This document shows positions 285 to 64,000 of a stretch of DNA of 64,000 nt, in pieces. Source of the stretch: Boothiomyces macroporosus. Lineage: Eukaryota > Chytridiomycota > Chytridiomycetes > Rhizophydiales > Terramycetaceae. The position numbers and the translations under genes are program-made. The notes beneath the pieces were generated by a model. The model did no database searches. It had not been told where the DNA came from and saw nothing but the letters and a program-made list of their open reading frames with translations. Each line of letters opens with the position of its first letter. The stretch's first letter is position 1. The DNA is taken from positions 62,001-126,000 of the forward strand of contig JADGKB010000012.1 of the NCBI GenBank assembly GCA_027604185.1, read 5' to 3'.

Positions 285-1350
285 ATGAAGGATGCCAAGC
301 TAGACAAGAATATCATGGACGCACATAGTGAATTGCTACATTTGGAAGCAGATTTTCAGGTAAGAGACGTTTAAACGCGAGACTACTCTTCATCGTTGGC
401 AGGACGACCAGTCTGTTGATTTATCACACATACTCAATTTGAAAGCTCCCCTGGATAATCTAATTGATTTATTCCATTCTTTTCAAATCCCAAAGCAAAA
501 TAGTCCAGACATGCCATCGTTTCATGTTGAAACAACGTTGGCTATTTTGCAGTCCCTGTTGTCTCGCTATGACTCTACAGTCGACGCACTTACACAGGCG
601 AGAGACTCTGTTGCGCGTTTGGATTCTAGGCATATCGTATCAAACGAAAGATTGATAGACTGGGCATCCACAACTCTAAAATCAATGGCTGATATCAGGA
701 CCATCTTACTTAATCAACATCATTTAATTTCACATCAACAAGCAGAGAGGGAGCTTTTAAAACAAAGACTTGCAAAAACAGAAAAGCAGCGCCAAACTTC
801 AGAGAATCTGGCATTATCATTGGCAAAGAAACTAAACTCTGCTGAAGAAACAGTTATGCTAATGGTGCAAGAAAAGAAAAAACAAGACCAAAAGATTCTC
901 TCTCTACAAACGCAAATGAAGCAAATTACCAATTGGAAAGAGCATGTTAAAGGTTTGGGAGTAACTAAGCCCCAACCGCATAAGTCAAATAAGAGAGAAA
1001 GGATGCTGGAGTACGCAGAAAAACAACAGGTGCGAAGGATACTAAAGAACGAATACGAAACGTTACTAAAAGCCAAATCCAATTCCCAAACACCTTCAAG
1101 AACCCCTTCAAGAACTCCCACTAGGACTCCCACTAGAACACCAACTAGGTCAAGGTCTAGTTCAAATGCTAAACAGAAAAAGAAAAAAGTAAAGCCGGAC
1201 GAAGAGCTCTTGATTAAATTATTGGAAAACCTGCAAATGGAACGTAAAGAGAAAAAGAACATGTACCCAGCTCAATCGGTACTGTTTTCAAAGCTGCAAC
1301 AAGTAGATGGAGAAATCAATCAATTGGCAAAAGAACTATTATTAGAATAA
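285..1350 (+). CDS. Coiled-coil protein with TP(S/T)R repeats
   Basis: Exons 285-359 and 382-1350, predicted 347 aa. The ATG at 285 opens a 25-codon first exon; a 22-nt intron (360-381, GTAAGA...CGAG) keeps the frame. An alternative acceptor at 402 would make a 43-nt intron and drop seven residues. The protein is hydrophilic, with long heptad-like stretches (about residues 100-220 and 290-345), and a short basic TPSR/TPTR repeat (six copies, coded near 1090-1155) followed by RSRSSS and a Lys-rich run. That composition suits a phosphoregulated scaffold or cytoskeletal/centrosomal linker, but no family was recognised. It converges on the lipase gene with only 3 bp between stop codons. Confidence 0.75.
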
Positions 1351-1353
1351 AGT

Positions 1354-4085
1354 TTATTGGATTGGTGATCTTGGGCGATCAATGTTATTTAGTAAATAAT
1401 TCAAAATATGATCGGCTAGTGGATGATCTGAATTGTCTATAAAATATTGATCTGGCGGGGTTGGGATTATGGTTTTTGCTGGAACTATTGTGAATCGTTT
1501 CCATGGGAGTTGGGTAAGAGCTTTGGCCATTTTATGCTCGGTACTGTCATTGTAGACTGGTTGGGTTGCCAATGGTACCGTAGAAATCTGGTGAAACTTT
1601 GTTGGAATAGTGGAGGGTATAGACTGTAAAGTTCCTATGCAATAGGTAGAATATAATGAGCCTTCTTGGTACATATTCCCATACAGAACCAAATGTTGAA
1701 ATTGACGTAAAGGCTCCATATAATCTGGATGTGTCAAGTACTCTAGAATATGATGGGTATCGCCATCTTCAGTCATAAAGTTGTCAATCAGATTCAACTC
1801 ACATCCAGTGGGAGATATGAGCGGTTTGAGCCATTTGTATGACAATAGCGTGTTGGTGATTGAACTATGCTGAAAACCTAAATGAGGAGTGTCTATGGTA
1901 ATAAAAAACACTGGTTGCAACTTGTTTGGAATAACTTGTTCATCCATCAGCATTTTCAATAGAAATCTTGTGTACAGACCCCCAATTGAATGGCATATGA
2001 ACGAAATTTTGTCTGCATTGCTCTTTTCCACTTCTTCTAATATCCAAGCTAGCAATCTTGTTGATGCTGCAACAATTCCATCATTGGTTTTATGGTCGTT
2101 GCAAGTAGGGATGGATATTTTATAATTTGGTCTTTTGAACTTGTCCCTTAATTTCTCCGCGAGGAAAATCATATCATGGCCAACTCCGTCTATTCCGTGA
2201 ATCAAAATAATCAAGTGTACTTTGGGTTGCTGCACAGTGGCAGGGATTTCTTCAACTACGTTATCTGGGGGACCATCTATCGGCTGTCTGAAATGGTCCA
2301 CCAAATGGGTTATAATTGGGAATCCATGTTTCCTATTAAGGAATTCTGATTTGATAATGATATCGATGTGGGCAAGGAGTGGCCTAGTTGGGATTACTGC
2401 ATATCGTTTCCAAGGAAGGGTAATCAAAGTGTTGAGCATCAAATCTTCCCAAGGCAATTTAGCATTTGCAGTATAAGGAGGAACCACTGGTATTTCTTCT
2501 TCAGCTACATCCGGTATTATAGCAGGAAGTGAAAGCAAGCTAACATCTACTTTGGTCCTGAATGGGCCAAGTTTGCGTATTGCCGCTGTTGAATAGTGCA
2601 CTGAAGCGTCATGTCTTACATTTGAGTACACTATTAATTTAACAAAATATGTCAATGGCTTAATAAACGGTTCTTCAACAAGTTTGAGCAAAAATGGCAC
2701 CTGCAGTTCATTTCCGTCAGCAAGCATAAGTTCTACCATTAGTACTGCCAACCTTTTCCTGTATTCCCAATAAATGTTCCAAGAACGGCCGAGGTAACAT
2801 TTTCTCCAAATATCTTTCCGTGTTCTCGAGACCCCAAGTGCGGAGTTGCCAAAGATATATAGTTAATTGGCTGTATCTTATTAGGAATCAATCCATCTTG
2901 ATACATTAATCCAATCAAGCATCTTCCATACATGCCTCCTAAGCTATGTCCTATGATGGAGATGAATTTAACATTTGTTTGTTTTATCTCTTCCTGTACA
3001 CATGCATAGATTCTTGTCGCTCCAGCCAATATGCCATCGTAGGTGCGTCCATGATTACACTCAGGGGCTAATATCTTGAATAGCGGGCTAGGGAATCGGC
3101 TTTTGAGTCTTGCGCCGATAAACGCCATATCAGTATTGAATCCATCCAACCCATGAATCAATACAACCAAATGAACATCTCCAGTTGGAGGAGATGCTGG
3201 TTTCTCTGTTTCTTTTAGATCGACTACATGGGATTCAAACTGAGTGGCAATAGATTGAATTACGGGAAAGGCATTCTTTGTTTTCCAAAATTCAGATTTT
3301 GAAATATCCAAACTAGAGAAAAACGATTTACCAGAGACTATTGCCATTCTTTTCCATTCTAATCTGTCTAAAGCATTCAATATTTCATTCTCGTGATTAT
3401 CTTCTTCTGGATCAGCGACCATATCAGCTTCACTATCAACTACTATGTGCGGTTGAGAGGTATCTATTGGTTTTTGACCAGCCAAATTTAGAGTGCTCCT
3501 TCTTTTCAGGGACGATGTCCGGTATTGTGAAGAAGAGTTGCTTTTGCAGTACGAGTACGTTACTCTCTTTTCAAATAAATGAAGAGCCTCCAAATACTCT
3601 CGTTTGGCCATTTGTAATAATATTGGATTTTCTTCATCGTCTCGCAATAACAGCTCTTTTCCTGTTTGGCCAAGTATAATACCAAACACGAAGGTCTGAA
3701 GATCCTTTCCAAGGGTATTATAATAATACCTAGATCCCAAGTGATGTGTAGCGATCGTAATAAAGTTTAATGGGGTTACATCCCCTGGGATAATGTTTTG
3801 TTGATGTAAAAGTTTTATAGCATAGCGAGCATACAGTCCTCCTAACCCATGACACACTAAGGAAAGATATTTGGAGTTGTATTTTTGGATCTCCTGTGTG
3901 ATAAACTGATACAGACGCTCCCCACCTTCTTGGATCCCTCCGTTAGTCCTTCCCTGGTTACATTCCGGAATAAGCACCACACCGTACTTGTTGAGAACCT
4001 CCTTTACCGGAATCAAATCCGCGGCAAATCCGTCCATTCCATGTACAAGCACTATTAGGTGTTGGTATATTTTAACTTGTTCCAT
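1354..4085 (-). CDS. Triple-domain DUF676 (lipase-like) alpha/beta hydrolase
   Basis: Exons 4085-2753 and 2732-1354, predicted 903 aa. The 20-nt intron 2733-2752 carries TACTAAT next to its 3' end and restores TGKELML across the junction. Three tandem DUF676 serine-esterase units each start with an HG-D/N-G oxyanion motif (near residues 15, 310 and 623). Unit 2 has GHSLGG (Ser about 381) and unit 3 CHSIGG (Ser about 692), but unit 1 has CHGLGG with Gly80 where the nucleophilic Ser belongs, so it is probably inactive. No signal peptide is visible; family members act on lipids in cytosol or on membranes. The first in-frame ATG is at 4085. A single-unit paralogue is encoded divergently at 4679. 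Confidence 0.88.
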
Positions 4086-4678: not shown

Positions 4679-5668
4679 ATGCACTTGGTCTTGTTGGTAA
4701 AAAGTATTTTAATTTCGTCTAGATTCATGGAGTAAATGGATATGCGAGCGACATGGATTATATTGCTGAAAAGATTCACAAAATTGCCCCAAAAGATACC
4801 ATCATTCAAGCACCACTCTGCAACCAAAAACAATCGCACGACGGAATATTGGTCTGTGCTCAAAGATATCTGAAATGGATAAAGTGGTTCATTGAAAAAT
4901 ACGAGAATATAAATGAAATATCAATGCTCGGGCACTCATTAGGTTGATTTGAATTAACATAGGTGGATTATACGGCCGTTGTCTGGTCGGCTTGCTGTAC
5001 AAAGAAAATATAATTCCGGACCGCTTAAAGCCGAGGAACTTCATAGCGCTATCAACACCTCATTTGCCGCCTGCACATCAAGACTGGCTGTTTGGAAAAT
5101 CATTAAGGAACTGGGGATTAAAAATGCTGATCGGGAAATCTGGAGTGGACCTGGCAATGCAAGATGATCGAGATAAACCAATCCTCCTTCAAATGTCCGA
5201 GGAGCCCTTTACAAAACCATTAGCCATGTTCAACAAGCTAATACTATACGCAAATATACGACATGATCCAGTAATTAATTATGGGAATGCATTGCTCTGT
5301 CGAAAAGACTATCCTGTCTGCAAAGCAGAGAAGCAGCATGGCCAGAAATCTTGGCCATTGGTTTTCCAACATGATGAACCATTGGAGCATTATGAGTGCA
5401 AGGAATTAGCGCAAGATGACAAAATTATGCAACAGTTGATGCAGCTGCCCTGGGAAAGGTACGGGATCGTTCCTTCGCGTCCTTTAATCGCTCATGCGGA
5501 CATGATTATAAAGTTCAAGTAATTGAAAACTAACATAGATCATGGAGTCTCAAACACGGAGAACCTATTATCGACCACATCGCTTCTCACTTTGATGACA
5601 AGACAGATCAAAGCGAAGAAGACAGCTCTGAAACTACAAAAGTAATGCGTGAAAAAGAAGTAATATAG
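4679..5668 (+). CDS. Single-domain DUF676 (lipase-like) hydrolase
   Basis: Exons 4679-4696, 4723-4942, 4963-5518 and 5539-5668, predicted 307 aa. Introns are 26, 20 and 20 nt; the first is longer than usual but is fixed by the HLVLLIHG motif it interrupts. The putative nucleophile is Ser78 in GHSLGG, and the intron at 4943 splits this very motif. The protein aligns along its whole length with units of the triple-domain gene (ENIIPDRLKP, LSTPHL, ILLQMSEEPFTKPL), so it is a paralogue, probably by local duplication and inversion. No transmembrane segment or signal peptide. Substrate unknown; the family includes lipases and esterases. Confidence 0.85.
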
Positions 5669-5691: not shown

Positions 5692-6737
5692 TTAGTATGA
5701 GAAACACAATACTTCTGGCACTTCCAATGGATTTTCCCCGTCGTACAAGCCAGGATAAAGGTATGAGAAAATTAGTCTTCTGGTAGTGTTCTCTTCTTTA
5801 CCAATGGAAAAAACACCACCTGATTTATATTGCGATTCATCGCTTGCTAGCGGCACTCCTACTTTGATATCTGGGAATTTCACTTGGAAGCTTTGGGATA
5901 CAAGAGGCATCGCCAATCGCAAAGATATGTAGGCAGTTACTAAATCGTTCAAAGGTAGTTTAGCGCCTTCTAGCTTATCAACATGGTTCGCAAGTGCAGG
6001 GAAAACCTTTACAAATAGCTTGTTGACCATCCTTTTTGTTCCAGTTTGGCGATCTACATATTGTTCCAATAAATGCAAACGCTCCAATGGATTCACTATA
6101 TCGTTTCTATAACTGTAGTTTAGGTCGATATATTCGTCCAAATTAACTAAACCTAACGTCTTTCCAAACATGTAATCTATATAACGATTAACTATATAAG
6201 GGGGGATTTCCTTGCTTTCATCAGCAGTTTTTCCTATCTTGGATATTCGTTCAATAATCTTTTTAGAGTAGAAATCAACGATTGAGGCTTTTGCTTTTGG
6301 ATCGAAGCTGTCGATGGAGGTCAAGATTCTGCTTGATAACTTTCCGTAGCCGTAAATCGACTTCATCTTGTGGAACCGCTCTAATAAGTTTCCAGGAGTC
6401 AAGTCCATTGAGTATATCCCATGCGGATTAGGGACAATAGCTCTCTGTCTGAAATAACCCTCTGATTCACTACATTTAGTACACACTCACTGTTGCTGTT
6501 CCAATGAAACGTTTTCTGCAGATGATACTGGAACATGAAATAGCTTGCGATCTGGCGGTGGTGGAAGTTCCTTATTTCTACATTAACCCAAAATTACATT
6601 TCCCTTGCCAAACGCTTTTCCAATTCATCTGCCCGGCTCTTCTCCTTGGCGAGTTCTATTTGTAACCGCTTCAATTCTGCTCGATAGTTTTCATTCTCAA
6701 TTTGCAACTGTTCTAAATCTTTTTGGAGCCCTTCCAT
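5692..6737 (-). CDS. Unknown protein with N-terminal coiled coil
   Basis: Exons 6737-6598, 6577-6491 and 6469-5692, predicted 334 aa. Two short introns (20 and 21 nt) join what otherwise look like two separate open frames. Residues 1-47 form a leucine-rich coiled coil (MEGLQKDLEQLQIENENY), followed by a proline-rich linker (ELPPPPDRK) and a 250-residue folded-looking region rich in aromatic residues. No domain was recognised. The ATG at 6737 is the first Met in frame; an upstream extension would need a TTG start. It shares a 172-bp divergent promoter region with the GlpA-type gene. Confidence 0.75.
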
Positions 6738-6909: not shown

Positions 6910-8540
6910 ATGGTGTGTGGTGATATCGAAGACATGAATGGTGAAAAATGCAAGAACTGCGATAAAGGATGCAGCAAACCAAAGGTTGAATTATACGATG
7001 CCGTAATTATCGGGGCTGGGGTAATTGGTTGTTCTATAGCTCGCGAGTTGGCAAAGTACCACCTCAAAGTGCTTGTGATTGACAAGAGTTCTGACGTATC
7101 GCAAGGTGCTTCGAAATCTAATAGCGGGATAATTCACGCAGGATTTGACGATCAACATGGCACATTGAAATCCAAGCTCTGCCATAAGGGGAACCATATG
7201 TTTAGGGGTTTAAATGAAGAGCTAAACTTTGGATTCAGGAATATCGGATCTTTAGTACTCGCTTTTTCCAAGGATGAGATCAAATTGCTCGACGAATTGC
7301 TGGAAAATGGAATCAAGAACGGGGTTGAAGGGCTAAAGATTCTTAACAGGGAGGAAACTATAGCCATAGAGCCTCACGTTAATCCGCAAGTATACGCATC
7401 ACTATATAGCCCGTGTGCGGGAATTGTGTCTCCTTATGAGTATACAATTGCGCTTGCAGAAAACGCTAAACAAAATGGAGTCGACTTTCTGCTAACACAT
7501 GAAGTAACGGATATACAAATGGTTTCCAATGATACACACGAAACTGGAATTACGTCTGCAACTGGCAACCACTTTCTAACTAGAATGGCAAGATTTGGAT
7601 TAGCTGTTCGTTCAAAAATTGTGGTAAACGCAGCTGGAGTAATGGCAGATAGAATAGCAGCCATGGTTGGTGCAAATAATTTCTATATAGTTCCACGAAA
7701 AGGTGAATACGTTTTGTTGGAAAAAAGTCAAGGGCATCTAGCAAGACATGTTCTGTTCCCAGTTCCTTCAAAAATCAGGGGTAAAGGTATCCTTGTTAGC
7801 CCTACATATCATGGAAATCTCCTTTTGGGCCCCACTTCTCGCGGATCGGAAGAATCATGTATTTCTCAACGGGAAGTACTCAAGCTTATCATCACTTCTG
7901 CTAGACATTCGGTTCCAGCCTTTGATGCATCAATGGCCATCACATCCTACTCTGGTCTGCGTGCAAAGTCTTCTCGAAATGATTTTATCATTGAAGAAAG
8001 CCTGACAACACCTGGCTTTATCAACGTTGCAGGTATCGATTCTCCAGGCTTGACAAGTTCGCCTGCTATCGCACAGCTGGCCTCTGAATTAATTAGAGGT
8101 GCCTTGTCCAAACATTATAATCATCAAGTTCAAGCAAATCCAAAATTCAATCCAGTTAGGAAACCGATTATCATCAAAAAAACTGAAGAGTTCAAAGGCA
8201 CTATCGATAATGATGACGCTAATTTGAACATTATTTGTAGATGCGAAAGAGTAACCGAAGCAGAGATTGTTGATGCGATACGTAGACCATTAGGTGGACG
8301 CGATACCGATTCAGTGAAACGAAGAACAAGGTAAGTACGATTAATATCAGAGCTGGGATGGGCAAATGCCAAGGAACCTTTTGCGAGCCACGGGTCGCTC
8401 ATGTAATTGCACGAGAATTGGCAATTCAAGAAAAAGATGTTCTTGGCCATACGGCAGGATCGTCAATTCTCCCACATAGGAGAGTGACTGACGAAGACAA
8501 GCAGCTACTCGCAGAAATAGCCAAATTGGCTAAACTTTGA
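6910..8540 (+). CDS. FAD-dependent glycerol-3-phosphate dehydrogenase, GlpA type with BFD domain
   Basis: Exons 6910-8330 and 8351-8540 (20-nt intron GTAAGT...TTAATATCAG), predicted 536 aa. An N-terminal FAD-binding Rossmann fold (VIIGAGVIGCS, about residue 35) belongs to the DAO family; the best match is the anaerobic GlpA/NAD(P)-FAD oxidoreductase group. The C-terminus carries a BFD-like [2Fe-2S] domain with CRC near residue 440 and KCQGTFC in exon 2; the intron lies between the two Cys pairs. Unusually, it has a Cys-rich N-terminus (CKNCDKGC). This architecture is common in anaerobic bacteria and a few anaerobic protists, whereas fungi normally use the mitochondrial GUT2 type, so transfer from bacteria is plausible though the gene now has a spliceosomal intron. 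Exact substrate is inferred. Confidence 0.8.
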
Positions 8541-8562: not shown

Positions 8563-9236
8563 TCACAAATTCGAAACCAATTTGGTAAGTCCGAGTAAAG
8601 TGTCTGACTTGGTTTCCTTGATCAAACCAGAGACTTCCTTAAAGTTTTTGTGGGTAGCGTCTCCCATCAATTGGAACAAGATTGATTCTGAAGTTGTAAG
8701 ATAAGCACCAGCTTCACGCATTCGCTAAAATCAGCCAAATATTACTTCGACAGCAACTTTCATTTCTGGTTGATTACAAGAAGAGATGCCATCCAAGACT
8801 AAATATACTTCAATATCATTTCGAAGTAAATCCAGAGTAGTTTGCAAAATACACACATGAGACTAGGTAAGGTAAATAGTACTTCAATTCCAAATAATAC
8901 TACTGTTTGAGTATTGAGAGATTTCACATGCTCTTCGACCTTTGGAATCCACATACTGAATTTAGTTTTTTCCGCAACCAAGCTGGCAGAATTGATATTA
9001 ATTTCCGGAAAAGTACTTCCAAGAGCTGCGTTAATTGATTACAAACCTTTTGGATAGTGCTCAGTGACGATCAATGGAATTTGCAGAATTTCAGAAGCCC
9101 GAACCATTTTATTGGCAGTTTGGATTACTTGCGGACATGCATGTATTATAGATCTGAATCTTTCTTGGAGATCGCAGAGGAAAAAGCAAGTTGAAGCTGG
9201 GTTTGGCAGTCTGGGAATTCGTTTCGAGATTGTCAT
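8563..9236 (-). CDS. Isochorismatase-domain hydrolase (ISOC1/2-like)
   Basis: Exons 9236-9047, 9025-8883, 8862-8746 and 8724-8563, predicted 203 aa; introns 21, 20 and 21 nt. After splicing the protein follows ISOC1/ISOC2 closely: FLCDLQERF (catalytic Asp), IVTEHYPKALG, VVLFGIESHVCILQT with the nucleophilic Cys, and ASLTTSE-like C-terminal motifs (AYLTTSESILFQLMGDA). Such cysteine hydrolases are often mitochondrial or peroxisomal; the N-terminus (MTISKRIPRL) could be a weak targeting signal. Its stop is 22 bp from that of the GlpA-type gene, and it shares about 250 bp of divergent upstream sequence with MON2. The physiological substrate is not known for this family. Confidence 0.85.
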
Positions 9237-9488: not shown

Positions 9489-12400
9489 ATGCTTGCCACT
9501 TTCTTGCAGAATGAGTTGATGCTCCTATCGACCGAGTCGAAAAAGAAAAACCCAGAGATTAAAGACGTATCTTTCTCTTACTTTAGGCTGCTGAGCGGTT
9601 GTTGTATTTGATCAGGACCTACAAGGAAGGAAATTTAAACGTCGCAACAGGTAGGCGAAGGCTGACGATAGAGCTATCAAAAACTGAAGAAACGCTTACG
9701 CCATTGTTGCTCTCCTTCAATACGAAAAACCCAAAGTTGATCTCAATTTCGGTTGGCTGCTTTCAAAAGTTGATTTCGCATAATGCTATCCCACCTGTAT
9801 TCAATAACTAATCCAGACCTCAATCGGAGTTATTTTAAAGTCCTTGTCGGATGTAATGGGAACTTCGCAGGACTTGCAGTTGAAAATATTACAAACCATT
9901 TTACCACTTGTTACAAACTACAATCAAATTCATGACGAATTATTAGGCCAAGCCTTGCTATTATGTTTCCATCTACATGATTCCAAAAATACAATTGTAG
10001 CAAACACCGCATCTGCCACCTTTCGGCAGCTTGTTCTCCATGCATTTGAAAAATTGTACAATCAATGTAAGCTTCATTTTAACTAGATTTAAAAGCCAAT
10101 AATATCAGTCCAGGATCAAACGAATTGCAGGATATCACTGAAAGCTCAAAGCCAATCAATAATGCATTAAAATTATACGAGAATGACGCGTTTGTTTTAT
10201 TTCAAGTATCCGTATTTTAATTCAGGACCTGTGCGTATTAATCAATGGCGAACCTGGAACATTTCTGAAAGTCAACTCAATGCAAAAAGCAATGGGGCTG
10301 GAAATTATTGAATCGATCATTTCAACATGTCCTAAACTATTTACCATCGTAAGAAGTGATTAACCAAGTATCCTGACTTGCTAAATCTTGTGAAAGACAA
10401 AGTTTGTCCTTTAATTGTAAAGCTATTTTCAGAAAAGGCGGAGTTTCCTCTCACTGTTAGACTTATCAGGGTAATCAAAAGTATGGTCAAACACTTTGCA
10501 GCAGTAATTCCTATGCCATGCGAAATATTCTTGACAATGTTTGGAAAAATATTAGACACTGATAATTACCCTGCATGGCAAAGGATTCTTGTCCTTGAGT
10601 GCTACAAGGTAATGTTCAATGAACTGGGATTGCAGCGCTCATTATTTGAAACTTTCGACAAAAACCAGCATTGTGCGAGCATTTATGCTGACATTGTCAA
10701 TGGAGTTTCTTCTGTATTGTTTGGAGCAAAAGACTATATGCTGTACTATAATCCCCTTGAAAAAAATGATCCAGCGGGAAGTGAATCATTATTTTTCTTG
10801 TCAAGTGTAAAGGATAATGTCAAAATGCTATGGTATCTATTTTTAATGTAGCTTGGACCAATTGGATAAACCTGAACCGCCTTCCTTTCCAGATGCGTAC
10901 CCTCTATTTCTTGCATACTCTATCTTGATAACCGTTGTGGATTGTCAACACGACTTTATTCTTCCTGTTATACAGCAGATACCTGATGAAGCACTAGGTG
11001 AAGTAGAGGCAAAGAAAATACAAGATGAAAATAATGAAGCTGTTTTCTTGGCGATTGAGATGGCAAACACCGTAGCTCCAGGGATTTATGCCTCTTTAAC
11101 GCTGCTATCTGTGTCTTCCGTAGGTGATGCTATATTTGCAAAAACTGCCAAGGCGATTGAAAAATTTGCTACAGTTGTTGGATTGTTGGGGTTGGTGCCA
11201 TATAGAGATGCATTTTTGGGTACTTTATGCAAAACATGCGTTTCATCTCAGATTCCAAACTACATTGACTATTCATCGTCGCCAAAAGAAATTGAACCAT
11301 TTGACTTTTCTCAGCTACATAATCGCACCCAGCCGGTTTCAGTTTCTGATAGGAATGTTATGCTCTTTAATACCATGATACAAAGTTCGTGTAATCTAAG
11401 CGATGTAATGGATCAAAAAATGTGGTTTGCCGTCTTGGAAACGATTCAATTGTATGATTCGTTAATGTCCCCTTCAAACAAAAGTGTAAGAAGACTCGAG
11501 TCAAGCCCAAGTATCGGCGAGGCTCCCCCTACATTAGTTGCAAAGGAAAGCGTACGAATGAGATCAACCACTTTAACTTTTATGGAAAACTATGCCAACA
11601 AGCTCCCAAATTTAGCTCCAGCTGATAATCAAGGCGTCCAATATCGAGACTCTGTGAAGAAGCTATTTGACAACACACCCACAATGAAACGCCAGCCATT
11701 TATTGACTTTTGTCGGTCATTGTGTAGACTAGCACATGAAACTATGGCGGGACATGGGATCATTCCACCAGGAGTTGTGATAAAGGAAGTTTCTAACGAG
11801 AAATCATTTGCCATTACTAAAATTTTAGAAGTTTCTCATCTGAATATCAAACGCCTAGTTGACCCTTCCGATTTTACAATCTTTGATCTACTTATCAATC
11901 AATTAATCCAAATGGTTCATTCCGCCAATTGTTCCACAGTGATTAGAAACCAAACTTGCTATGTGTTTGGAGAACTGCTCATCTGTGCAAGTAATGAACC
12001 AGTTTTCTCAAATGAAGAAGTGGAATTGCATATCATTGATCCGCTGATGAATTTGATGGCATTTGAACCAATACCCACCACAGAAGGCTCTGTATCTAAT
12101 CTAGAAGTTGCTCCATCCGACAACTTGGCATTGAAGTTGCCATGGCTCCAAGATGTGCGCAAAAGTGGACTAGATATAGTAAACAAGCTCCTTCAGAATA
12201 GTGGCCAGAACTTTAAAGCCAGTTGGAATTTTCTTTTTGATTTGATTTATTTGGCAGTAAAGTCATCGTGCCCTCCAAAAAGGAAAGAAAGTACACTAAA
12301 ACCGATTTTGGAAGCAACTTCTCCAATTGGAATCACTGAAAGCCCTGCATCGTTGGATGGATCTTTCCCATTGAAAAATAACAGTTTGATACGTGCTGGC

Positions 12401-17384: not shown

Positions 17385-17397
17385 TAACCCTAACCCT
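17385..17397. repeat. Telomere-like TAACCCTAACCCT
   Basis: Two tandem copies of the CCCTAA telomere unit inside the long intergenic region. It is too short to call a relic chromosome end and could be chance, or a Tbf1/Rap1-like site. Confidence 0.3.
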
Positions 17398-32930: not shown

Positions 32931-34425
<1,495 letters not shown>

Positions 34426-48500: not shown

Positions 48501-49841
48501 AACCTCCAATCTACTCACATTTAACAGCCACTTTGGAAGGGCTGCTTTCAATTCGTTCATACCATGCACAAGAACGTTTTGATGAATTGAATTTGGTCAA
48601 GCTTGATGCAAATCACGAAGCAGCTTTCGCTATGCAGAATGGTATTTGATGATTTTACTGTAGTTAAATCTTTCCAGGCGCTATATCTGGATATCTTGTC
48701 GTCGCTCGTAATTTATTTTTCAGCCTTGTTATTAATATTTGTCAGAAATGAGGATAGTATAGGTTCTATTGCAGGTTTGGCACTTTCAAATGCCCTGCAG
48801 ATGCTAGTTTTTGTTCAATGGACGGTCAGACAATGGGGTGATGTCGAATCGCAAATGTCATCCGTTGGGCAATTAATATTCTATGGAAATATCAAACCGG
48901 AAGCACCATTCGAAATTCCAGATAAGAAGCCTCCTGCTGAATGGCCAACAGAAGGAAAAATCAAATTCACCAATATTGAGCTTAAATACCAAAAGTTTGG
49001 AGTCTCAGTGTTGAAAAATATTAATCTTGTTATTTACCCAATGGAAAAGATTGGTATTGTAGGAAGAACGGGATCAGGAAAATCTACTGTATATCATATT
49101 TAATTGTAGTTGCTTATATCATTATTACGAATTGTTGAACCTTGCAATGGTACCATCACAATCGATGATTTGGATGTTTCAGGAATTGGGCTACACGATT
49201 TAAGAAACAAAATTGCTATTATTCCTCAAGAGCCCGTCATGTTTGTTGGAACCATTCGTTCCAACCTGGATCCATTCAATAAATCCACAGATGAGGAGAT
49301 ATGGAAGGCACTTGATGCCGTTTTCTTGGGAGAAAAACTAAGAAAGGCACCATCAAAGCTCGACACTGCAGTTTCAGAAAATGGAAAATCCGTCTCTCAA
49401 GGTCAGCGCCAGCTGTTGTGCATTGCCAGAGCGATCCTATCCAAAGCAAAAGTTTTAGTTTTGGATGAGGCTACAGCATCTCTGGATGCACAAACTGATT
49501 TGATGATTCAAGAGGCAATCAAAAAGAACTTTGGAGAGTTAACCATGCTCACAATTGCTCACAGATTGAATACAATCATAGAATCGGATAGAGTACTGGT
49601 AATGGATGCTGGCTGTGTAAAAGAATTCGATGAACCTAAAACGCTACTTGAAAACAAGGATGGTATTTTTAGAAGTTTGGTAGATCAGACTGGTCCTCAG
49701 GCTAGTCAAAAGCTTATTGAAATTGCCAACAAAGCGCACGAAGAAAGAGTTGCAAGAGGTTACCACTTCCCTGCTAAACAGGAAAAAGCGGACTCTAGTA
49801 AGCCTCTGAAAGTGACTGACATCGCTGCCGGGAATATTTGA
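45569..49841 (+). CDS. ABC transporter, ABCC (MRP/YCF1) subfamily
   Basis: Exons 45569-45804, 45826-45923, 45946-46481, 46502-48641, 48664-49088 and 49110-49841, predicted 1388 aa (introns 20-22 nt). Topology TMD1-NBD1-TMD2-NBD2, without the extra TMD0. NBD1: Walker A GDVGCGKSS, signature LSGGQRQR, Walker B IVLMDDPLSAVD (Asp replacing the catalytic Glu, usual for ABCC). NBD2: GRTGSGKST, split from its continuation by the last intron; signature SVSQGQRQ; Walker B VLVLDEATASLD. Such pumps export glutathione or lipid conjugates across vacuolar or plasma membrane. The second intron (45924-45945) resolves what looks like a frameshift in TMD1. Confidence 0.93.
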
Positions 49842-55086: not shown

Positions 55087-56633
55087 CTATAGCAATGTAT
55101 TCAGAGATATGAAAATGAAGGCAGACAACAATGAAAATGAAGAAGCGGAGCCTTTCGGCTTATTGGCATTTGGGGCTTCTGTTGGAGATGGAGGCAGTGT
55201 CATTAGTGGTACTGGGGCACTAGTTTGATTCATAATACTATCCCAAGCATTGAGAATCAGCCCATGCACTCGTTTAGCCTCATCGGTTGAAGAATTCGTG
55301 AGTTTATACATGTCACTGCAGTGGTGGCCATCTTGAACTTGAATAAAGGTATTTGAGGAATTGCCAACGGTTTTTATACCCAAATAACTCCATGGATCTA
55401 TTGTGCCATGAACGAAGACAACATTTGTGGTATAATTGGTAATCGCCAGGCCTTGATATTTAGCATTGAAAGAGTCGATATCGGGAGGATTCAAGTAAAA
55501 GAGTTGCTTGCAGACAGACAAAGTCGCCGACAAACTCAACTGACTTGAAAACGCAGATTGATGTGGGGCTTCATACAACTGAAAGAAACCAAACTCTGCA
55601 CAGCCCTAAATTAAACAATTCCTACCTGGTATATCCAAAGGATCAAATCGTCTTTTGACATGCCGGTTGAATCCACTGGCTGATTATTCACAACAGTGTA
55701 AAGTGTATTATAATCTGCAAGTACATCTGTATCACTGGCATTTGGGTTTATCAGATTATTTAAATAATTTCCAGAGCACACAAAGTCTACAAGCTTCACC
55801 TTTTTGCCACCAAGAGCAAGGGTTGGCGAAAATCCGTACTGTACTATAGGAGACAACAATCGTGAGATTGCTGCAGGGACGGAGGAACTAGAGTCCGCAT
55901 CGTTCAACTTCACTGCTCTTCTCCATCCGGCAGCGCAGGCATCAGAACCGCCGGATTTTGCCAGACCAATGTCCACCGCGTATCCGTATTCCCAAAAGTC
56001 TGCCTTGGCTAATACTGGAGCAGAAGATGCGTGAGCAGCATAGACTACGTCAGGATATTTCATTCTCATCCATGCAGCAAGGTTGCCAGGATAGCTTCCA
56101 CCAACCGTAATCCATCTACTTTTGCCATTCACATTCTTGGAGTAGCTTTTGATAAAATTGTATCCATCCTCTAACGCCTGCCCAACATTAAAGGTAGTCA
56201 TTGCTGCCTTCATATTTGGTGATCCTAAAGCTTCACTAATAGGGCTAAGGCCATCAGCTCCGTAGAAACGGTGTTCCAAGATAATCAAAAGTCCTTTGTA
56301 TCTTTGTGCTAGTTCATAGTGCAATTCATAAGGCAGAAAGGTAGCATTGATTTGGGATTCACCACCCATTTCTAAAAAGATTGGTCCACCATTAGCTTTA
56401 TCATAAAACTCATCGTCTACATAGAATCGCTGTTTAAATGTTCCTTGTTTTGGATCATTGTGATCCAATAGTTGGTCGAAATACTGGTAGTTGATTACTT
56501 TGTCTTTGATTTCAGGTTTGAATTTCATTCTGTCATTAATGCGTTGCTACCTTAGCAGGTCTTTATAGCCGTTGATCTGAAAAGCGGCATTTGCCAAACA
56601 GAGCAAGCAGAAAGTGAGAATGTTGAAGCTCAT
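55087..56633 (-). CDS. Serine peptidase S28 (PRCP/DPP7-like), probably GPI-anchored
   Basis: Exons 56633-56551, 56529-55626 and 55605-55087 (introns 21 and 20 nt), predicted 501 aa. Signal peptide MSFNILTFCLLCLANAAF in the first exon. Catalytic elements: GGSYPG (Ser), GTIDPWS (Asp), DGHHCSD (His). LLDHNDPKQGTFKQRFYV and EHRFYG are S28 hallmarks. After a Pro/Ser/Thr linker the protein ends in a hydrophobic tail (SFSLLSAFIFISLNTLL) typical of a GPI-anchor signal. These secreted enzymes cleave after proline. Nutritional or surface role inferred. Confidence 0.92.
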
Positions 56634-56974: not shown

Positions 56975-58289
56975 ATGTCTACCTTTGGAAGGTAAAATTG
57001 CCTTAATGTTCCAGTTTGTTTCGAGTAACTACATTTGGCGAGTCTCATTGTAAAGCAGTAGGTGTTATTGTTGATGGCTGCCCACCAGGTTTACCCCTTT
57101 CAGAATCTGACGTGCAACCTCAATTAACAAGGAGGAGGCCAGGTCAAAGTGATTTAACTACACCAGTAATACATACTAATATCAGAGGGACGAAAAGGAT
57201 CAGGTTACAATTTTATCCGGATGTGAAAAGGGGTATACTTTAGGAACCCCAATTGCAATGATGGTTCCAAATCAAGACCAACGACCACACGATTATGGCG
57301 AAATGGACTACTATCCAAGACCTTCGCATGCGGATTGGACTTATTTGCAAAAATATGGAATCAAAGCATCATCTGGAGGAGGTCGCTCAAGTGCCAGAGA
57401 AACAATTGGTATTTTGGATTAATGAAAGGTAGAGTGGCAGCATCCGCAATTGCAGAAAAGTATTTGAAATCTGCATTTGGAATTGAAATTGTCGCTTTCG
57501 TTAGTGCAGTGGGCAACGTAAGAATGGAACCAATGGAAGATTACGAAGATGCACAAGATAAAGGCGCATGGTTGGAAAAATGGCACAAATGGTGGAGTTA
57601 TTTAAACGGTGTGCAAAGAAAGGATGTGGATGCGAACGAAATCAGATGTCCTGACCCTGTAGTAGCGGAAAAAATGAAGCAGGTGGGTTATTTACTAACC
57701 AAAAGAGAATCTTGAAAGCAAAAGAGGACCAGAATTCCATTGGTGGTGTCGTTCAGTGTGTCATTAGAAATGTTCCAACTGGGTTAGGAGAACCATGCTT
57801 TGACAAGTAATCACTCTTTTAATTAGGCTCGAAGCCAAACTCGCACACGCAATGCTTTCAATCCCTGCTACCAAAGCCTTTGAAATTGGTAGCGGAATGG
57901 CAGGTACTCAAATCCCTGGTAATGTTCACAATGACTCATTTGTACAAAACGATGGTCGCATGCGGACAGAAACAAACTTCTCTGGTGGTATCCAAGGCGG
58001 TATTTCTAACGGTGAGGATATCTACTTTAAGGTGGCCTTCAAATCTGTAGCCACCATTGGACAGGAGCAGGAAACAGCAAAGTACACCGGTGCTGCTGGC
58101 GTTTTGGCAGCGAAAGGTAGACATGACCCTTGCGTTTTACCAAGGGCTGCTCCTATCGTCGAATCTATGGCTGCGTTAGTTATTATGGATATGGTTTTGC
58201 AACAAGAAGCAAGGAAGGGTGCAGCAAGTCATTTGCAAAAGAGCGACATTCCTCCGGTGCTTACTGGCAAATTGGAAGGTGCGATGTAA
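56975..58289 (+). CDS. ARO2: Chorismate synthase
   Basis: Exons 56975-56991, 57015-57165, 57186-57408, 57429-57682, 57706-57806 and 57827-58289 (introns 23, 20, 20, 23, 20 nt), predicted 402 aa. Signatures: [15 protein letters not shown] (signature 1), [36 protein letters not shown], and [15 protein letters not shown]. It makes chorismate from EPSP using reduced flavin, the last shikimate step, showing that the organism makes aromatic amino acids or at least keeps this enzyme. The 17-nt first exon encodes only MSTFGS before the first intron. Confidence 0.95.
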
Positions 58290-58333: not shown

Positions 58334-59046
58334 TCAAGAAACCGGAGCTACAGAAGTCTTGAACAGTCCATCAGGTCTTTGTTCCTCTTCTTTGATAAAC
58401 TGTAAAACTTCATCCACAAATGTTCCCGCTTTCCCACTTGCTAAATCCTCTTTGTAAGTGGTGGCTCTTGCAATAGCTTCCTTGAAAATTGTTACCACAT
58501 TACTTCCATCGCTAGCAGATACAAAATAAAACGGCAAATCCTGCTCATTACCTCCTCTCTCTATTCTTCTCTTTTCTACAAACGCGAATGATTTCGTAGC
58601 TCTTGAAGGGTCCATATCAATCTTGTTCGCAACAACAATAACCGGCATCTTTATACCACGATGTGAAACTAATTCTTCATACCAAGTATCCAAATTCTTG
58701 TACCTATATTAATAAATCTTACGTTATCTTTCTAGTAACGTCAAAAACTAGGATACAACAATGAGCTCCGTGGTAGTAACTGGCATGCATACTTAAAAAG
58801 CGCTCTTGCCCAGCTGTATCCCAAAAATCAACTTCTAAATTTTCAGATGGGGTTTGTGGATTTGGACATACATGCCTGTACAATGTCAAGGCATAAGTAG
58901 AAGACTGGTGGGGGATGTAATCGTCAAGTAAATATCTTTCCATGAGTTTAGATTTCCCTACTGCAGAGTCTCCTAATAAGATAATCTTGTGAGTTGCAAA
59001 GTACCTTTATATCTGCTGGTTTCTCTACCTTTTGAATGTCTTTCAT
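58334..59046 (-). CDS. RABL2: RABL2-like small GTPase (ciliary)
   Basis: Exons 59046-59005, 58985-58723 and 58703-58334 (two 19-nt introns), predicted 224 aa. It follows RABL2 closely: IILLGDSAVGKSKLMERYL, STYALTLYRH, VDFWDTAGQERFLSMHASYYHGAHCCILVFDV, VVANKID and YFVSASDGSNVV. RABL2 binds IFT-B and controls entry of IFT trains into cilia; the family is restricted to flagellated lineages. The frame stays open upstream to an ATG at 59208, which would add 54 residues (GILDYICNVQTRKALWELI...) not present in RABL2; I chose 59046 because it matches the family's short N-terminus. Confidence 0.92.
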
Positions 59047-59844: not shown

Positions 59845-60857
59845 ATGGGTGATCAAAAGAAGCTTGCTTATGCGATTTGCGATTTCCTCTCCAGAAACAT
59901 TAAAAATGGGACAATCAAGAGCGACGACGCAGAAGGAATCGAAGGTAAATTTAGTACTGATTTCAGTTGCGATTCAATGCATTGGGGAAGCATTTGGAGT
60001 CAGCTACCCTGAAAACACTGAATTGAAGGCAGCAGCAAATCTGGAACAAGTATTCAATGTATTCCTAAAGACCCAAGAACAAGCGCAACCAAAGAAGAAG
60101 GAGAAAGTGGTCAACAAGGAATTGGCGGAAGACTTGAAATCTCAAGGCAACAAATTATTGGCAACAAAGAACTATGCTGAAGCAATTGTAAAATACACTG
60201 AAGCCATTGAAGCGGACGATACTAATGCCGTGTATTATTCAAACAGAGCTGCTGCTTATTCTCAACAAGGAAACCATGAATTGGCTGCGCAAGATGCCAA
60301 GCAAGCATTGAAGATTAACCCAGATTATTCAAAAGCGTATTCCAGACTAGGACATGCTGAATACTGTCTTGGAAATTATCAAGCTGCTGTTGATGCTTAT
60401 ACAAAAGGCAGTGAAATGGAACCAAATAACGCTTCAATTAAACAATCACTTGCTGCTGCTCAACAAAAGTTGGGATCTGTTTCTCGTCAAGCTGCAGATC
60501 CAGTTGGTTCAAGTCCATTTGGTGGAATGGGAGGAATGCCTGACATCTCTCAAATGATGAAGTATATCTGGTTAATATTAGTGATCCAAATATCATGAAT
60601 ATGGCCGCAAAGATGATGAGCAACCCTGCTGTAGCTAATATGATGAGCAACCCAGCTATTGCAAATATGATGAATGGTGCCAGAAACGGTGGTGGTATGC
60701 CAGATATTGCTTCCTTGATGAACAACCCTGAAATTGCGCAAATGTAATATTGATTAATATTAGGGCATCTTCATTGATGAGTGATCCCGAAGCAATGAAC
60801 ACTTTGATGAGCAATCCAGCCCTAGCAAACTTGGCAAAGAATTTACCTAAAGAATAA
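59845..60857 (+). CDS. SGT2: SGT2 (SGTA) co-chaperone
   Basis: Exons 59845-59944, 59967-60561, 60582-60743 and 60764-60857 (introns 22, 20, 20 nt), predicted 316 aa. The N-terminal dimerisation domain KKLAYAICDFLSRNI then VAIQCIGEAFGV is the GET4/5-binding module. Three TPR motifs (LKSQGNKLLATKNYAEAIVKY onward) bind HSP70/90. The C-terminus has repeated MMSNPA(V/I)ANMM and LMSNPALANL units, the methionine-rich substrate-binding part. SGT2 hands tail-anchored proteins to the GET pathway. The two last introns interrupt the NP-repeat region. Confidence 0.95.
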
Positions 60858-61394: not shown

Positions 61395-63181
61395 ATGGAA
61401 GTGCTGTTCAACAAACCAATCTCCCTACAAATCAAAAATCAAACCGAGAACAAAAAGCCGATAAATATTAAAATATCGCAGATACAAAAGGAAGTAAAAA
61501 AAGTATTTGTTTACTAACCAAGCTCAACTTTCAACTTACGGACGAAACGGATCCCTTCTTTTTCTTTTACTTGGATATTATTGAGCAAGACTTCCACTTT
61601 ATAAAGCAGGAGCAAGGACTACTGATTGATTTTGTAGAGTTCCCAGTTAAATTTATAGAGCTTTTGGAGGCGTGTATTGCAAGTGGAAAAGATCTTCACC
61701 CAAAGTAATCCATTGGTAATAATAGGTTTGTTGCGCAGCTACAGCAGGATGATCGCTATTCTACTTTTTCAATAATTGAAGCAAACTCCTTCAAGCAAAT
61801 CAATCACCTCTCCTTAAAGTTCAATCAAGGGAATGATTCTACCATTAAAGAGTACTTGGCAACAGTAGTAAAGGACTTTAAAGTACTTTGTTTCTCACGT
61901 AGACTCAAACCCACAATCTGCAACAGGCTCTTTCTCAATCAACTAGATCTTGCAGGGAATCTGAACAATTAATATCAAAGATAAGTGCAGAACTGGATCA
62001 GCTCAAGATTAAGCACTCTGAAGAAATGAATATTTTGAAACAAAATCATTTGATAGAACTTACCAAAGAGAAGGAACGCTTTATGGGAGATAAAGACAGT
62101 TTTAGAGAGACTAATGAGCAATTATTGCAGAGCACTAGATCAGACTATGAACTAAAAGTTAAAGATTTATCGGAAAAACTTAATAGCCTAAACGTATCCT
62201 ATTCTCATATTCTGAAACACTCTCAATCTTTGGAAACAGCAAACTCAGAGCTCACAAAAAAGTTGGAATCTGTCACTCAGGATTTATCGTTTTCTAGACA
62301 GGAGAGTGAACGATTGTCAGTTACCAAGCAGCATCTTCAGGACTCCAACAAAATGCAAGCTGCAAAGATTGGCATTTTGGAAGCAAATTTAAAAGAAACG
62401 GAAGAAAGAGAACGTGCAGCTTTGGAAGAGAAAAAGAAAGCGCTAGATAAAGTCGATTTGATACAGATTCAAATAGTAATCTTGCTTTAAACTAGAAACG
62501 TGAGGAGGACTCTGTTCAAGTATTAAAACATCAGGTAGAAGGATTAGAGCAAGGGCTGAAAAAGGCTGGAGAGGAAATCAACAAGGTATAATATACTAAT
62601 TCAGGGTAATGAGATTATCAAGCGTTTGCAGCTGGACTTGAAGAATGCAAAAACCAAGATCAAGCTAAAGAATACTGTTACTCTTCAGCAAGAAAAGCTC
62701 TTGGATGAGCGAATGGCTTCGATAGAAACTTTGCAAAAAGAACTTGCTCAATCACATAAAACTAGCCAAGAACAGCAAACAGATTTGGAGACCAAATCAA
62801 AGAAAATCACAGATTTGACTTCCCAATTGGAAGAAAGCAGAAAAATTATTGAAGATAACAATAGAGGTAAATCGGTTCTAACAAGTTATTGAATGGCTGC
62901 ACAAGCAATTGAATGAAGAAGCACTGCAGAAACCATTATATTCAAAAGGGTTTACTCAGATCGACTTTTCCAAATATACTACTGTAGAGCCAGAAAAATA
63001 TGCAGACTATAGGCAAACACCTAAACAAAAAGAAGAAATGGTCTTTACACCAAGAGAAAGAGAGCTTCCTTCCGTTCCAAGAACAGTTACACCCAACCTT
63101 CCCAAATTTACTCAACCTACCACTAGTATTCCGTTAAAATTTGATCAGCCAGTTGTCCAGCCTAAAAGTAGTTACTTTTAA
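61395..63181 (+). CDS. SAS6: SAS-6 centriole cartwheel protein
   Basis: Exons 61395-61502, 61523-61704, 61726-61882, 61903-62475, 62496-62585, 62605-62866 and 62886-63181 (introns 19-21 nt), predicted 555 aa. The N-terminal head domain reads VLFNKPISLQIKNQ, LTDETDPFFFYLDIIEQDF, QGLLIDFVEFP, and the PISA-like motif region NSFKQINHLSLKFNQGND. A long coiled coil follows (NEIIKRLQLDLKNAKTKIKL, NTVTLQQEKLL), then VIEWLHKQLNE and an unstructured Pro-rich tail. SAS-6 sets the nine-fold symmetry of centrioles and basal bodies, so this organism builds flagella. Confidence 0.95.
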
Positions 63182-63192
63182 TAAAAAGAGAT

Positions 63193-64000
63193 TTATTCGC
63201 TAGAATTATTTTCTGGATTCTGTTTAAAAAGGAATTCTGCCAAGTAATCAATTGGATCCTCTGGCCGAATTTTAGCAACTTCTACCAGTCCAGCAGTTAA
63301 AGTAGGCATAATATACTTTACCAAGTAGTTTCTTAATGGCTCGGATTGGATTTCCAATACTTCCTGCTCTTGTTTACGCACTTGTTCCAACTTTGCATTC
63401 CATTCCGCAGTTGCTTTGTTGTGGCGTTCAATTTCTTCTTGCTGTCTCTTAAATCGCTCTTCAGCAGCTGCTGCTTCGGCATTCAACTAACGTTAGAATA
63501 ATATACTTTTGCTTTTTCAGCTTCTTTTCTTTCTGCTGCAATTTGCTCTGGAGTTAGTCCGTAATTTCGAGGTTCGCCCAATTCTTTTTGGATTTGCTCA
63601 ATGATTTGATTAGTTTCGAGTAATTCAGCTTGCAAAATTGCCGGACTGATTTCTAATTCATCGAAATAATTCAAAACGGTTAATTCGTCAGTGTTGTTCT
63701 TTCTGAAATCATCCAGTCTTTTTGTCAACGCTAAATTAATGTATTTCTACCTTCTTCAGAATTCTTTGTGCCTACTACAGCAGATTCAGGTAATTTTTGT
63801 ATCCTTTGTTTGATGGCCAAGTCAGACATTTCGATTGTGAACACAAACTCTGGAACGACCACGTCATCAACAACAGGAATAATTCTTTCTTCTTTTCCAT
63901 CATCGTCCGAGGCTTCGTTAGTAATATTTACGTTTAAATAATTCGGCTGCTTCCTCCATGGTAGTTGGGAAACCATCGAGTATATAACCCTGATTCTTGC
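63193..64000 (-). CDS. AK7: Adenylate kinase 7-like protein, 5' part outside window
   Basis: Exons 64000-63932 (partial), 63912-63751, 63730-63507 and 63486-63193; introns 19, 20, 20 nt. Visible parts: NQGYILDGFPTTMEEA (NMP-kinase core), FTIEMSDLAIKQRI, a coiled segment (AAAAEERFKRQQEEI), and a C-terminal Dpy-30 motif (LRNYLVKYIMPTLTAGL then PIDYLAEFLFKQNPE). An adenylate kinase fused to Dpy-30 is the AK7 architecture, an axonemal enzyme balancing ATP/ADP/AMP in flagella. It converges on SAS-6 with 11 bp between, two flagellar genes side by side. The N-terminus, including the P-loop, lies beyond 64000. Confidence 0.92.

Follow-up and report, generated by a model that had tools for sequence, protein, structure and literature searches.

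We report that the genome of Boothiomyces macroporosus, a zoospore-forming soil chytrid (Rhizophydiales, Terramycetaceae), carries a tight class of segments of 18–23 nucleotides (nt) interrupting its reading frames. We think it likely that these segments are GT-AG introns, removed by the ordinary major (U2-type) spliceosome and shortened by deletion to a floor set by geometry; the predicted introns rank among the shortest known. The window, the whole stretch of DNA analysed, spans 64,000 nt (contig JADGKB010000012.1, positions 62,001 to 126,000, assembly GCA_027604185.1). A preliminary description of the window had pointed to such introns. Its observation is confirmed overall, far above the chance level set by decoy-pair controls, and the two introns that it gave as examples are present, GTAATCTGAATTAATCTAG in a kinesin gene (34728–34746) and GTAAGTGTTGTTAATATAG in PEX11 (30856–30874).

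The sample consisted of the window and 20 stretches of 10 kilobases (kb), each from a different other contig (264 kb in total); the genome comprises 15.2 megabases (Mb) in 216 contigs and is free-standing. A gene-joining scan looked for the best-scoring chain of coding stretches, joined solely across one set dinucleotide pair, and decoy dinucleotide pairs, not shuffled sequence, served as controls. In an unbiased pass all GT-AG lengths from 10 to 120 nt were weighted equally and no other signal was used. This pass placed 62 of its 151 joins at 19–21 nt (22 at 19 nt, 24 at 20 nt and 16 at 21 nt), while eight decoy pairs gave 124–145 joins each, with 1–6 at 19–21 nt and no peak. Since the peak arises without a length prior and the decoys are flat, the size class emerges from the data and was not put in. 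GT-AG ends are above chance in reading-frame context, and among the pairs scanned the peak was seen for GT-AG alone.

A self-trained model was seeded with the 18–23 nt joins of the first pass, given a 30% uniform length term and allowed intron lengths from 12 nt; being seeded by length, it leaves the unbiased pass as the one free of a length assumption. The strict run of this model placed 199 of 207 introns at 18–23 nt (47 of 19 nt, 96 of 20 nt, 34 of 21 nt, 19 of 22 nt and three of 23 nt). The size range, the mode of 20 nt and the genome-wide spread that had been claimed are thus borne out, the last by the 20 other contigs. Five decoy pairs under the same strict model yielded 4–9 calls at 18–23 nt. 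Looser settings returned 252 and 287 introns, 239 and 268 of them at 18–23 nt, with 5–16 and 7–20 decoy calls in that range; as the decoy counts climb too, some percent of false calls must be reckoned with at the looser settings. No intron shorter than 19 nt occurs in the strict set over the 264 kb, so the 18-nt lower end of the earlier range is absent there, while one such intron was read by hand in PEX11 (30706–30723).

For the window itself the strict setting gave 68 introns (64 of 18–24 nt) and the lenient setting 93 (84 of 18–24 nt); the earlier figure of about 110 is plausible, though the count was not reproduced. The finder misses short exons and 21-nt introns free of stops, and the introns starting at 17998, 30706, 34470 and 35895 were found by hand or by homology. 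Extrapolation from 207 introns in 264 kb gives ∼12,000 introns genome-wide. The strict set contains 1.03 introns per kb of coding sequence, a lower bound, against an average of 3.93 introns/kb in two chytrids (Lim et al., PMC8476143, in the part available), which makes the term ‘intron-rich’ used earlier a relative one. With a density below that of these two chytrids, the lineage may have lost introns besides shortening them, the count being a lower bound.

The 199 short introns are alike in anatomy. An A occupies the third position in 94%, in agreement with the GTA start described previously. A G at +5 was found in just 31 introns, leaving +5 unpaired with U1 in most, and a G at −1 does not compensate for its absence in these introns. 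The best branch site was YTAAY in 136 introns (Y, pyrimidine; R, purine), a consensus that we take to be unlike the U12 type. By motif, the branch A lies at base 14 in 85 introns, 15 in 83 and 16 in 22 (168 at 14–15 and 190 at 14–16), and at base 10–11 in five. It is followed by five bases in 91 introns and by six in 79 (170 together), and by 4–7 in 191. Where a single YTAAY is present (134 introns), the A falls at base 14–16 in 126, at 17 in two and at 8–11 in six. The gap from the branch pentamer to the final three bases averages 1.6 nt, which is tighter than the 2–5 nt stated in the preliminary description; the adjacency of the branch element to the 3′ splice site stands. The spacer is U-rich yet C-poor (T 44% and C 10%, versus T 31% and C 19% in the whole sample), at odds with the pyrimidine-rich middle proposed there.

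Junctions in conserved genes and in relatives

Twenty modelled junctions (five in Prp19, eight in kinesin-5 and seven in UFD4) were compared with public proteins, a junction being scored as ungapped when no gap fell within nine residues per side. Seventeen of the 20 were ungapped against at least one other species' protein; 16 of these introns are of 19–23 nt and one is of 52 nt. This continuity lends indirect support to removal of the segments from mature mRNA. The remaining three, UFD4 junctions 50597, 54188 and 54227, have nearby gaps of 1–10 columns. The spliced gene models match Pfam; in the case of PEX11 the match (PEX11 family, 3e-26) is to the spliced 5′ part only.

Spliced at its five predicted introns, Prp19 has 506 residues, the same length as Prp19 of Boothiomyces sp. 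JEL0866, to which it is 94% identical. This identity and the 15.2 Mb of the assembly uphold the earlier statement that the DNA comes from a free-standing genome of fungal affinity. At the UFD4 locus (49885–54352) the deposited B. macroporosus protein has 1192 residues versus 1427 in the spliced model, 235 fewer, and most of the residues missing from the deposited record are conserved in Boothiomyces sp. JEL0866. Gaps aside, an identity of 100% was reported between the model and this record (P0241); a single residue, at a junction, is different.

In kinesin-5, a candidate intron with GT-TG ends (36587–36606) has a normal branch element and is one candidate exception to GT-AG; two relatives support its frame, with low local identity. 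A tandem repeat with a GCAAACAGAAG-like unit lies upstream of the gene, at 34265–34348.

Inserts of exactly seven residues occur at two positions of the Terramyces Prp19 and at two positions of the Boothiomyces sp. UFD4, in each case where B. macroporosus has an intron of 19–21 nt. Back-translated in the phase of the intron, all four can be written as a 21-nt segment of the form GTA...YTRAY...AG whose branch A stands 5–6 nt before its end. Of random 8-residue windows taken from six of these proteins, 0.19% can be written in this way. The simplest reading is that the four inserts are ultrashort introns left unspliced in public gene models. With inserts in both genera, the trait is likely common to two genera of Terramycetaceae and to three or more of their species, and it likely spans the family.

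Splicing machinery and the lower limit of intron length

Ten parts of the machinery, not a full inventory, were examined, and all are present: U1, U2, U6, SF1, U2AF65, Slu7, Prp18, Yju2, Prp19 and Cwc25 with its glycine plug. U1 (AUACUUACCUG) is canonical, with the 5′ splice-site sequence ACUUACC, complementary to GTA(A). Two copies of U2 (GUGUAGUA) score 142 and 135 bits, both with the canonical GUAGUA, and U6 (62 bits) carries the canonical ACAGAGA. SF1 retains the helix-hairpin, KH domain, zinc knuckles and a KRKTRW motif, the meaning of which we assume; U2AF65 has three RRM matches. The MGGG start of Cwc25 aligns with human and yeast Cwc25, once the model is trimmed to the MGGG methionine (the predicted start lay 43 residues earlier). 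The gene models of SF1, U2AF65, Slu7, Prp18 and Cwc25 themselves hold introns of 19–24 nt, and that of Yju2 holds none. The Cwc25 locus is found as identical 3,111-base stretches on two contigs (L037 and L038; contigs C49 and C100), either a recent duplication or uncollapsed haplotypes.

If the segments were not spliced at all, they would have to reflect DNA elimination, ribosome bypassing, or assembly or sequencing errors that mimic short insertions. The opening for such readings is that splicing is read here from sequence alone. We regard them as extremely improbable: the GT...YTRAY...AG anatomy matches the genome's own U1, U2 and U6, the decoy pairs are flat, and apparent retained copies stand at the same positions in proteins of two other species.

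Another explanation accepts the introns as real and holds that they are this short since factors that need space were lost or changed. Precedents exist. In Stentor coeruleus, with introns of 15–16 nt, neither Slu7 nor Prp18 was detected and Cwc25 lacks its plug, according to the available part of PMC9505925, and mikrocytids, with introns of 16–17 nt, have just 17–19 identified spliceosomal proteins (PMC10245619, in part). The tally in B. macroporosus also covers ten parts, with many factors outside it. Each of those ten is nevertheless present, including the three that distinguish Stentor, and among them nothing of the nucleomorph or mikrocytid type of reduction was found. Loss of Slu7 or Prp18, which the short branch-to-3′ distance had led us to predict, is set aside, as both genes are there. 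The spliceosome-reduction part of the preliminary description therefore finds no support in the parts examined, all canonical-looking, while change elsewhere is possible; of the items that it proposed to compare, U2 small nuclear RNA (snRNA), SF1, the U2AF65 subunit of U2AF and Prp19 were each found. The tight sizes, the 3′-adjacent branch element and the free-standing genome of fungal affinity are what remains of its interpretation. We consider a reduced or remodelled spliceosome improbable.

Under removal by an ordinary major spliceosome, events may run as follows; from the motif positions, the consensus and the snRNA sequences, which are observed, we infer the pairings and their order. The 5′ end, GTA(A), would pair with U1; the YTRAY element, whose A is base 14–15, would pair first with SF1 and next with U2 snRNA, through GUAGUA; and the 3′ splice site would be the AG met 5–6 nt past the branch A. 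Given the footprints of the U6 and U2 pairings, a branch A at base 14 would let U6 on the 5′ end and U2 on the branch site fit side by side with ∼2 nt to spare. The sharp floor (the shortest intron seen, 18 nt, is 14 + 4) would then be where the U6 and U2 helices collide. Deletion likely eroded the introns of the family to this floor, where canonical protein factors would cope.

The longer introns bear on whether such a floor is also a ceiling. Eight of the 207 strict introns exceed 24 nt (26, 71, 105, 80, 103, 47, 106 and 25 nt). The 80-nt call resolves into exon and a 20-nt intron ending in TG, the 105-nt call into exon and two short introns, and the 26-nt call sits in a frame conflict, so these three are rejected; the 25-nt call is plausible as an intron, and those of 71, 103, 47 and 106 nt stand as unconfirmed predictions. 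Three further cases are the 52-nt UFD4 intron (53449–53500, ending in CTAATTATAG), a probable 30-nt intron (CTGACTTTAG) and a 40-nt segment of topoisomerase II at L033 (TTTAATTCAG). Branch-to-end spacing is 5–6 nt in each, and a direct reading of the sequence places their extra length on the donor side only. The exceptions keep the 3′ spacing, which thus appears to be a general feature; on the donor side there seems to be a floor and no hard ceiling.

These cases also speak to a reading in which the spliceosome measures the donor-to-branch distance, and purifying selection, not drift by deletion, holds introns at ∼20 nt. It would account for a mode of 20 nt that is not the minimum and for the near absence of a tail, and donor–branch and branch–end spacings are negatively correlated (r = −0.72 in the 134 single-YTAAY introns, a value inflated by a few misassigned branch points). 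Yet the 52-nt intron persists in a conserved gene, UFD4, and introns of 30 and 40 nt are probable, the latter on the strength of presumed continuity with human topoisomerase II. Selected length thus appears to us rather unlikely, with more in its favour than spliceosome reduction.

The 40-nt segment (L033:2308–2347) parses exactly as introns of 21 and 19 nt with no exon between. Stwintrons, in which an external intron has one of its splice elements interrupted by an internal intron, are known (PMC5639578, in part). Pairs of introns with a gap of zero appeared enriched (five pairs at four loci). As a general feature, back-to-back arrays were rejected: compared with what we take to be relatives, L009 and L022 become exon plus intron, and the case in the window (54188–54246) is ambiguous, which leaves the L033 segment alone standing.

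A number of points weigh against U2-type removal of introns at a geometric floor. Removal by the major spliceosome is itself deduced from sequence, and the branch A was assigned by motif, not mapped; a full YTRAY occurs in 154 of the 199 short introns. The six single-YTAAY introns with the A at base 8–11 are taken for misassigned and, if real, would break the floor. All 34 strict introns of a length divisible by three hold an in-frame stop; this amounts to a bias of detection, which leaves the counts for lengths 18 and 21 too low. Against Terramyces alone, ungapped junctions number two of five in Prp19, five of eight in kinesin-5 and three of seven in UFD4, and against Boothiomyces sp. alone two of seven in UFD4; the single-relative counts are lower because those records carry inserts or lack segments. 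A fifth back-translation, of the kinesin intron of the window, did not fit, having been run in phase 1 for a phase-2 intron, and the first intron of Prp19 meets, in Terramyces, a 6-residue gap beside an unrelated N terminus, outside the four inserts. U1 scores 68.8 bits, just under the Rfam cut-off of 69.5. The score of U2AF65, 230.7 bits, falls short of the cut-off for its family, 310.3; it comes from a six-frame search, in which genes are split by exon. Factors beyond the ten (U2AF35, SF3 subunits, U1 proteins, Isy1, U4, U5) could be altered. Finally, in human cells ∼46 nt from donor to branch is the reported minimum (PMC11291888, in the part available).

The introns described here would leave no room for an early complex of the human kind in unmodified form, and early assembly must therefore differ. 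As a speculation, U1 might leave before U2 docks firmly, and the weak +5 would help this hand-over. A bolder proposal, which we offer tentatively and would not be surprised to see fail, is that a whole free-living fungal family runs an essentially unmodified spliceosome at a donor–branch distance of 14 nt. The true minimum of an intron would then be one of RNA geometry, with the U6 donor helix and the U2 branch helix just non-overlapping, plus a 4-nt tail, and the ∼46-nt human limit would belong to early assembly, not to the catalytic machine.

Introns and other features of the window

Predicted introns are collected in Table 1; the gene names kynureninase-like and SAS-6-like are our presumptions.

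Table 1. Predicted introns of the window (positions count from its first base; P numbers are public protein records)
Feature	Position	Strand	Evidence
Prp19 intron 1, 23 nt	17998..18020	+	ungapped, 14/14 identical to P0001
Prp19 intron 2, 20 nt	18171..18190	+	ungapped, 19/19 vs P0001; Terramyces record with 7-residue insert
Prp19 intron 3, 21 nt	18537..18557	+	ungapped vs P0001, P0002
Prp19 intron 4, 20 nt	19094..19113	+	ungapped, 19/19 vs P0001; Terramyces record with 7-residue insert
Prp19 intron 5, 20 nt	19448..19467	+	ungapped vs P0001, P0002
PEX11, 18 nt (14 + 4), shortest found	30706..30723	+	hand-read
PEX11, 19 nt	30812..30830	+	window intron sets; Pfam-matched spliced 5′ model
PEX11, 19 nt, example in preliminary description	30856..30874	+	window intron sets; Pfam-matched spliced 5′ model
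PEX11, 19 nt	31015..31033	+	window intron sets; Pfam-matched spliced 5′ model
Kinesin-5, 23 nt	34470..34492	+	ungapped, 19/19 vs P0121
Kinesin-5, 19 nt, example in preliminary description	34728..34746	+	ungapped, 19/19 vs P0121, P0122
Kinesin-5, 21 nt	35614..35634	+	ungapped, 19/19 vs P0121, P0122
Kinesin-5, 21 nt, no in-frame stop	35895..35915	+	read through by finder, giving 7-residue insert absent from P0121, P0122
Kinesin-5, 19 nt	36436..36454	+	ungapped vs P0121
Kinesin-5, 20 nt, candidate GT-TG ends	36587..36606	+	ungapped vs P0121, P0122; local identity low (9/19 and 6/19)
Kinesin-5, 20 nt	36928..36947	+	ungapped vs P0121
Kinesin-5, 22 nt	37233..37254	+	ungapped vs P0121, P0122
Kinesin-5, 20 nt	37395..37414	+	ungapped vs P0121, P0122
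UFD4, 21 nt	49989..50009	-	ungapped, 19/19 vs P0243; P0242 with 7-residue insert
UFD4, 19 nt	50253..50271	-	ungapped vs P0243; P0242 with 7-residue insert
UFD4, 21 nt	50597..50617	-	ungapped vs same-species P0241; one gap vs P0243, ten vs P0242
UFD4, 52 nt, long exception, donor GTAAGT	53449..53500	-	ungapped vs P0242, P0243
UFD4, 21 nt	53958..53978	-	ungapped, 18/19 vs P0242
UFD4, 20 nt	54188..54207	-	lenient set; three nearby gaps in relatives
UFD4, probable, 30 nt	54227..54256	-	lenient set; three to five nearby gaps in relatives
Kynureninase-like gene, 22 nt	28711..28732	+	lenient set; replaces strict-set 105-nt call
Kynureninase-like gene, 20 nt	28827..28846	+	lenient set
Intron, 20 nt	2733..2752	-	ab initio strict set
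Intron, 20 nt	4943..4962	+	strict set
Intron, 20 nt	5519..5538	+	strict set
Intron, 21 nt	6470..6490	-	strict set
Intron, 20 nt	6578..6597	-	strict set
Intron, 20 nt	8331..8350	+	strict set
Intron, 21 nt	8725..8745	-	strict set
Intron, 20 nt	8863..8882	-	strict set
Intron, 20 nt	9567..9586	+	strict set
Intron, 20 nt	9797..9816	+	strict set
Intron, 20 nt	10067..10086	+	strict set
Intron, 20 nt	10206..10225	+	strict set
Intron, 20 nt	10349..10368	+	strict set
Intron, 19 nt	10833..10851	+	strict set
Intron, 20 nt	14628..14647	+	strict set
Intron, 19 nt	15259..15277	-	strict set
Intron, 20 nt	19759..19778	+	strict set
Intron, 19 nt	19968..19986	+	strict set
Intron, 19 nt	20272..20290	+	strict set
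Intron, 21 nt	20849..20869	-	strict set
Intron, 20 nt	23223..23242	+	strict set
Intron, 20 nt	23636..23655	+	strict set
Intron, 19 nt	23863..23881	+	strict set
Intron, 22 nt	27558..27579	+	strict set
Intron, 19 nt	29605..29623	-	strict set
Intron, 19 nt	29711..29729	-	strict set
Intron, 20 nt	40906..40925	+	strict set
Intron, 20 nt	41233..41252	+	strict set
Intron, 20 nt	41477..41496	+	strict set
Intron, 20 nt	41612..41631	+	strict set
Intron, 20 nt	44150..44169	-	strict set
Intron, 20 nt	44763..44782	-	strict set
Intron, 21 nt	45093..45113	-	strict set
Intron, 20 nt	45221..45240	-	strict set
Intron, 20 nt	46482..46501	+	strict set
Intron, 22 nt	48642..48663	+	strict set
Intron, 21 nt	49089..49109	+	strict set
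Intron, 20 nt	55606..55625	-	strict set
Intron, 20 nt	57409..57428	+	strict set
Intron, 19 nt	58704..58722	-	strict set
Intron, 19 nt	58986..59004	-	strict set
Intron, 20 nt	60562..60581	+	strict set
Intron, 20 nt	60744..60763	+	strict set
SAS-6-like gene, 20 nt	61503..61522	+	strict set
SAS-6-like gene, 21 nt	61705..61725	+	strict set
SAS-6-like gene, 20 nt	61883..61902	+	strict set
SAS-6-like gene, 20 nt	62476..62495	+	strict set
SAS-6-like gene, 19 nt	62586..62604	+	strict set
SAS-6-like gene, 19 nt	62867..62885	+	strict set
Intron, 20 nt	63487..63506	-	strict set
Intron, 20 nt	63731..63750	-	strict set

A possible 129-nt intron at 17466–17594, GTAAGT...TTCTAATATCTAG, contains a match to the small nucleolar RNA (snoRNA) SNORD24 (47.8 bits). 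This host intron was set aside as a lead, equally good flanking splice signals being found by chance in 1.6% of placements. A second C/D-box-like match (17650–17732, 20 bits, below cut-off) lies 3′ of SNORD24; SNORD18 gave no match, and neither did the controls of that search. An interstitial CCCTAACCCT (17388–17397), presumably a telomere-like motif, lies directly upstream of the two snoRNA matches.

Elsewhere in the window, positions 6910–8540 encode a predicted oxidoreductase with a C-terminal cysteine-rich part, which in our estimation resembles bacterial glycerol-3-phosphate dehydrogenases, and horizontal transfer is possible. A predicted protein of ∼900 residues (1354–4085) seemingly consists of three tandem units, which we take for alpha/beta-hydrolase units; a related single unit lies at 4753–5668.

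Known systems and significance

Among the papers listed, the literature search found no report of such introns in chytrids or other free-living fungi; most subscription papers were outside this search, and a mention elsewhere is possible. The sources cited in this section were available in part. Introns of 18–24 base pairs are described for the chlorarachniophyte nucleomorphs of Bigelowiella and Gymnochlora (PMC4035089), the same size class as in B. macroporosus with a similarly narrow spread. Nucleomorphs, however, are relic nuclei with very small, reduced genomes, whereas B. macroporosus has a free-standing genome of 15.2 Mb and all ten tested parts. The mikrocytids share the very narrow size range (Mikrocytos mackini has 224 introns of 16–17 nt; PMC10245619); they are parasites with few introns, in contrast to the ∼12,000 of B. 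macroporosus.

Stentor coeruleus resembles B. macroporosus in its uniform tiny introns, the GUA start, canonical U1 and U2 motifs, retention of SF1 and U2AF2, and ∼5 nt after the branch A (PMC9505925). The two differ in the position of the branch A, which in Stentor is at base 10–11, with no strong consensus described in the accessible part of that paper, and in B. macroporosus, by motif, at 14–15 within a clear YTRAY. Of the traits of the Stentor type, a branch A at base 10–11 is confined here to the five introns mentioned above, introns below 19 nt are absent from the strict set, and the plug, Slu7 and Prp18 were found. This contrast suggests that somewhere between donor–branch distances of 14 and 10 nt the machine would have to change.

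A fixed spacing from branch to AG is documented in Yarrowia (2 nt) and in Trichomonas and Giardia (4 nt) (PMC2483917), where the branch element nearly touches the 3′ site as it does here; by the measure of that paper the spacing in B. macroporosus is 2–3 nt. The same source, in its available part, associates the constraint with species that have few introns, and the introns of Yarrowia are fairly long, while those of B. macroporosus are short on both sides of the branch and number ∼1 per kb of coding sequence.

Until now, introns of this size were familiar from giant ciliates, parasites and relic nuclei, in some of which the spliceosome is altered. Pollen used as bait has yielded strains of Boothiomyces and Terramyces from soil or water (PMC11210171). 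With isolable free-living strains and canonical tested parts, what sets the minimum size of an intron becomes testable, and B. macroporosus would offer a way to test how far an intron can shrink and still be removed by a normal spliceosome. For the family, the public proteins likely translate 21-nt introns as 7-residue inserts, and the proteomes of Terramycetaceae would have to be annotated anew with shorter introns allowed.

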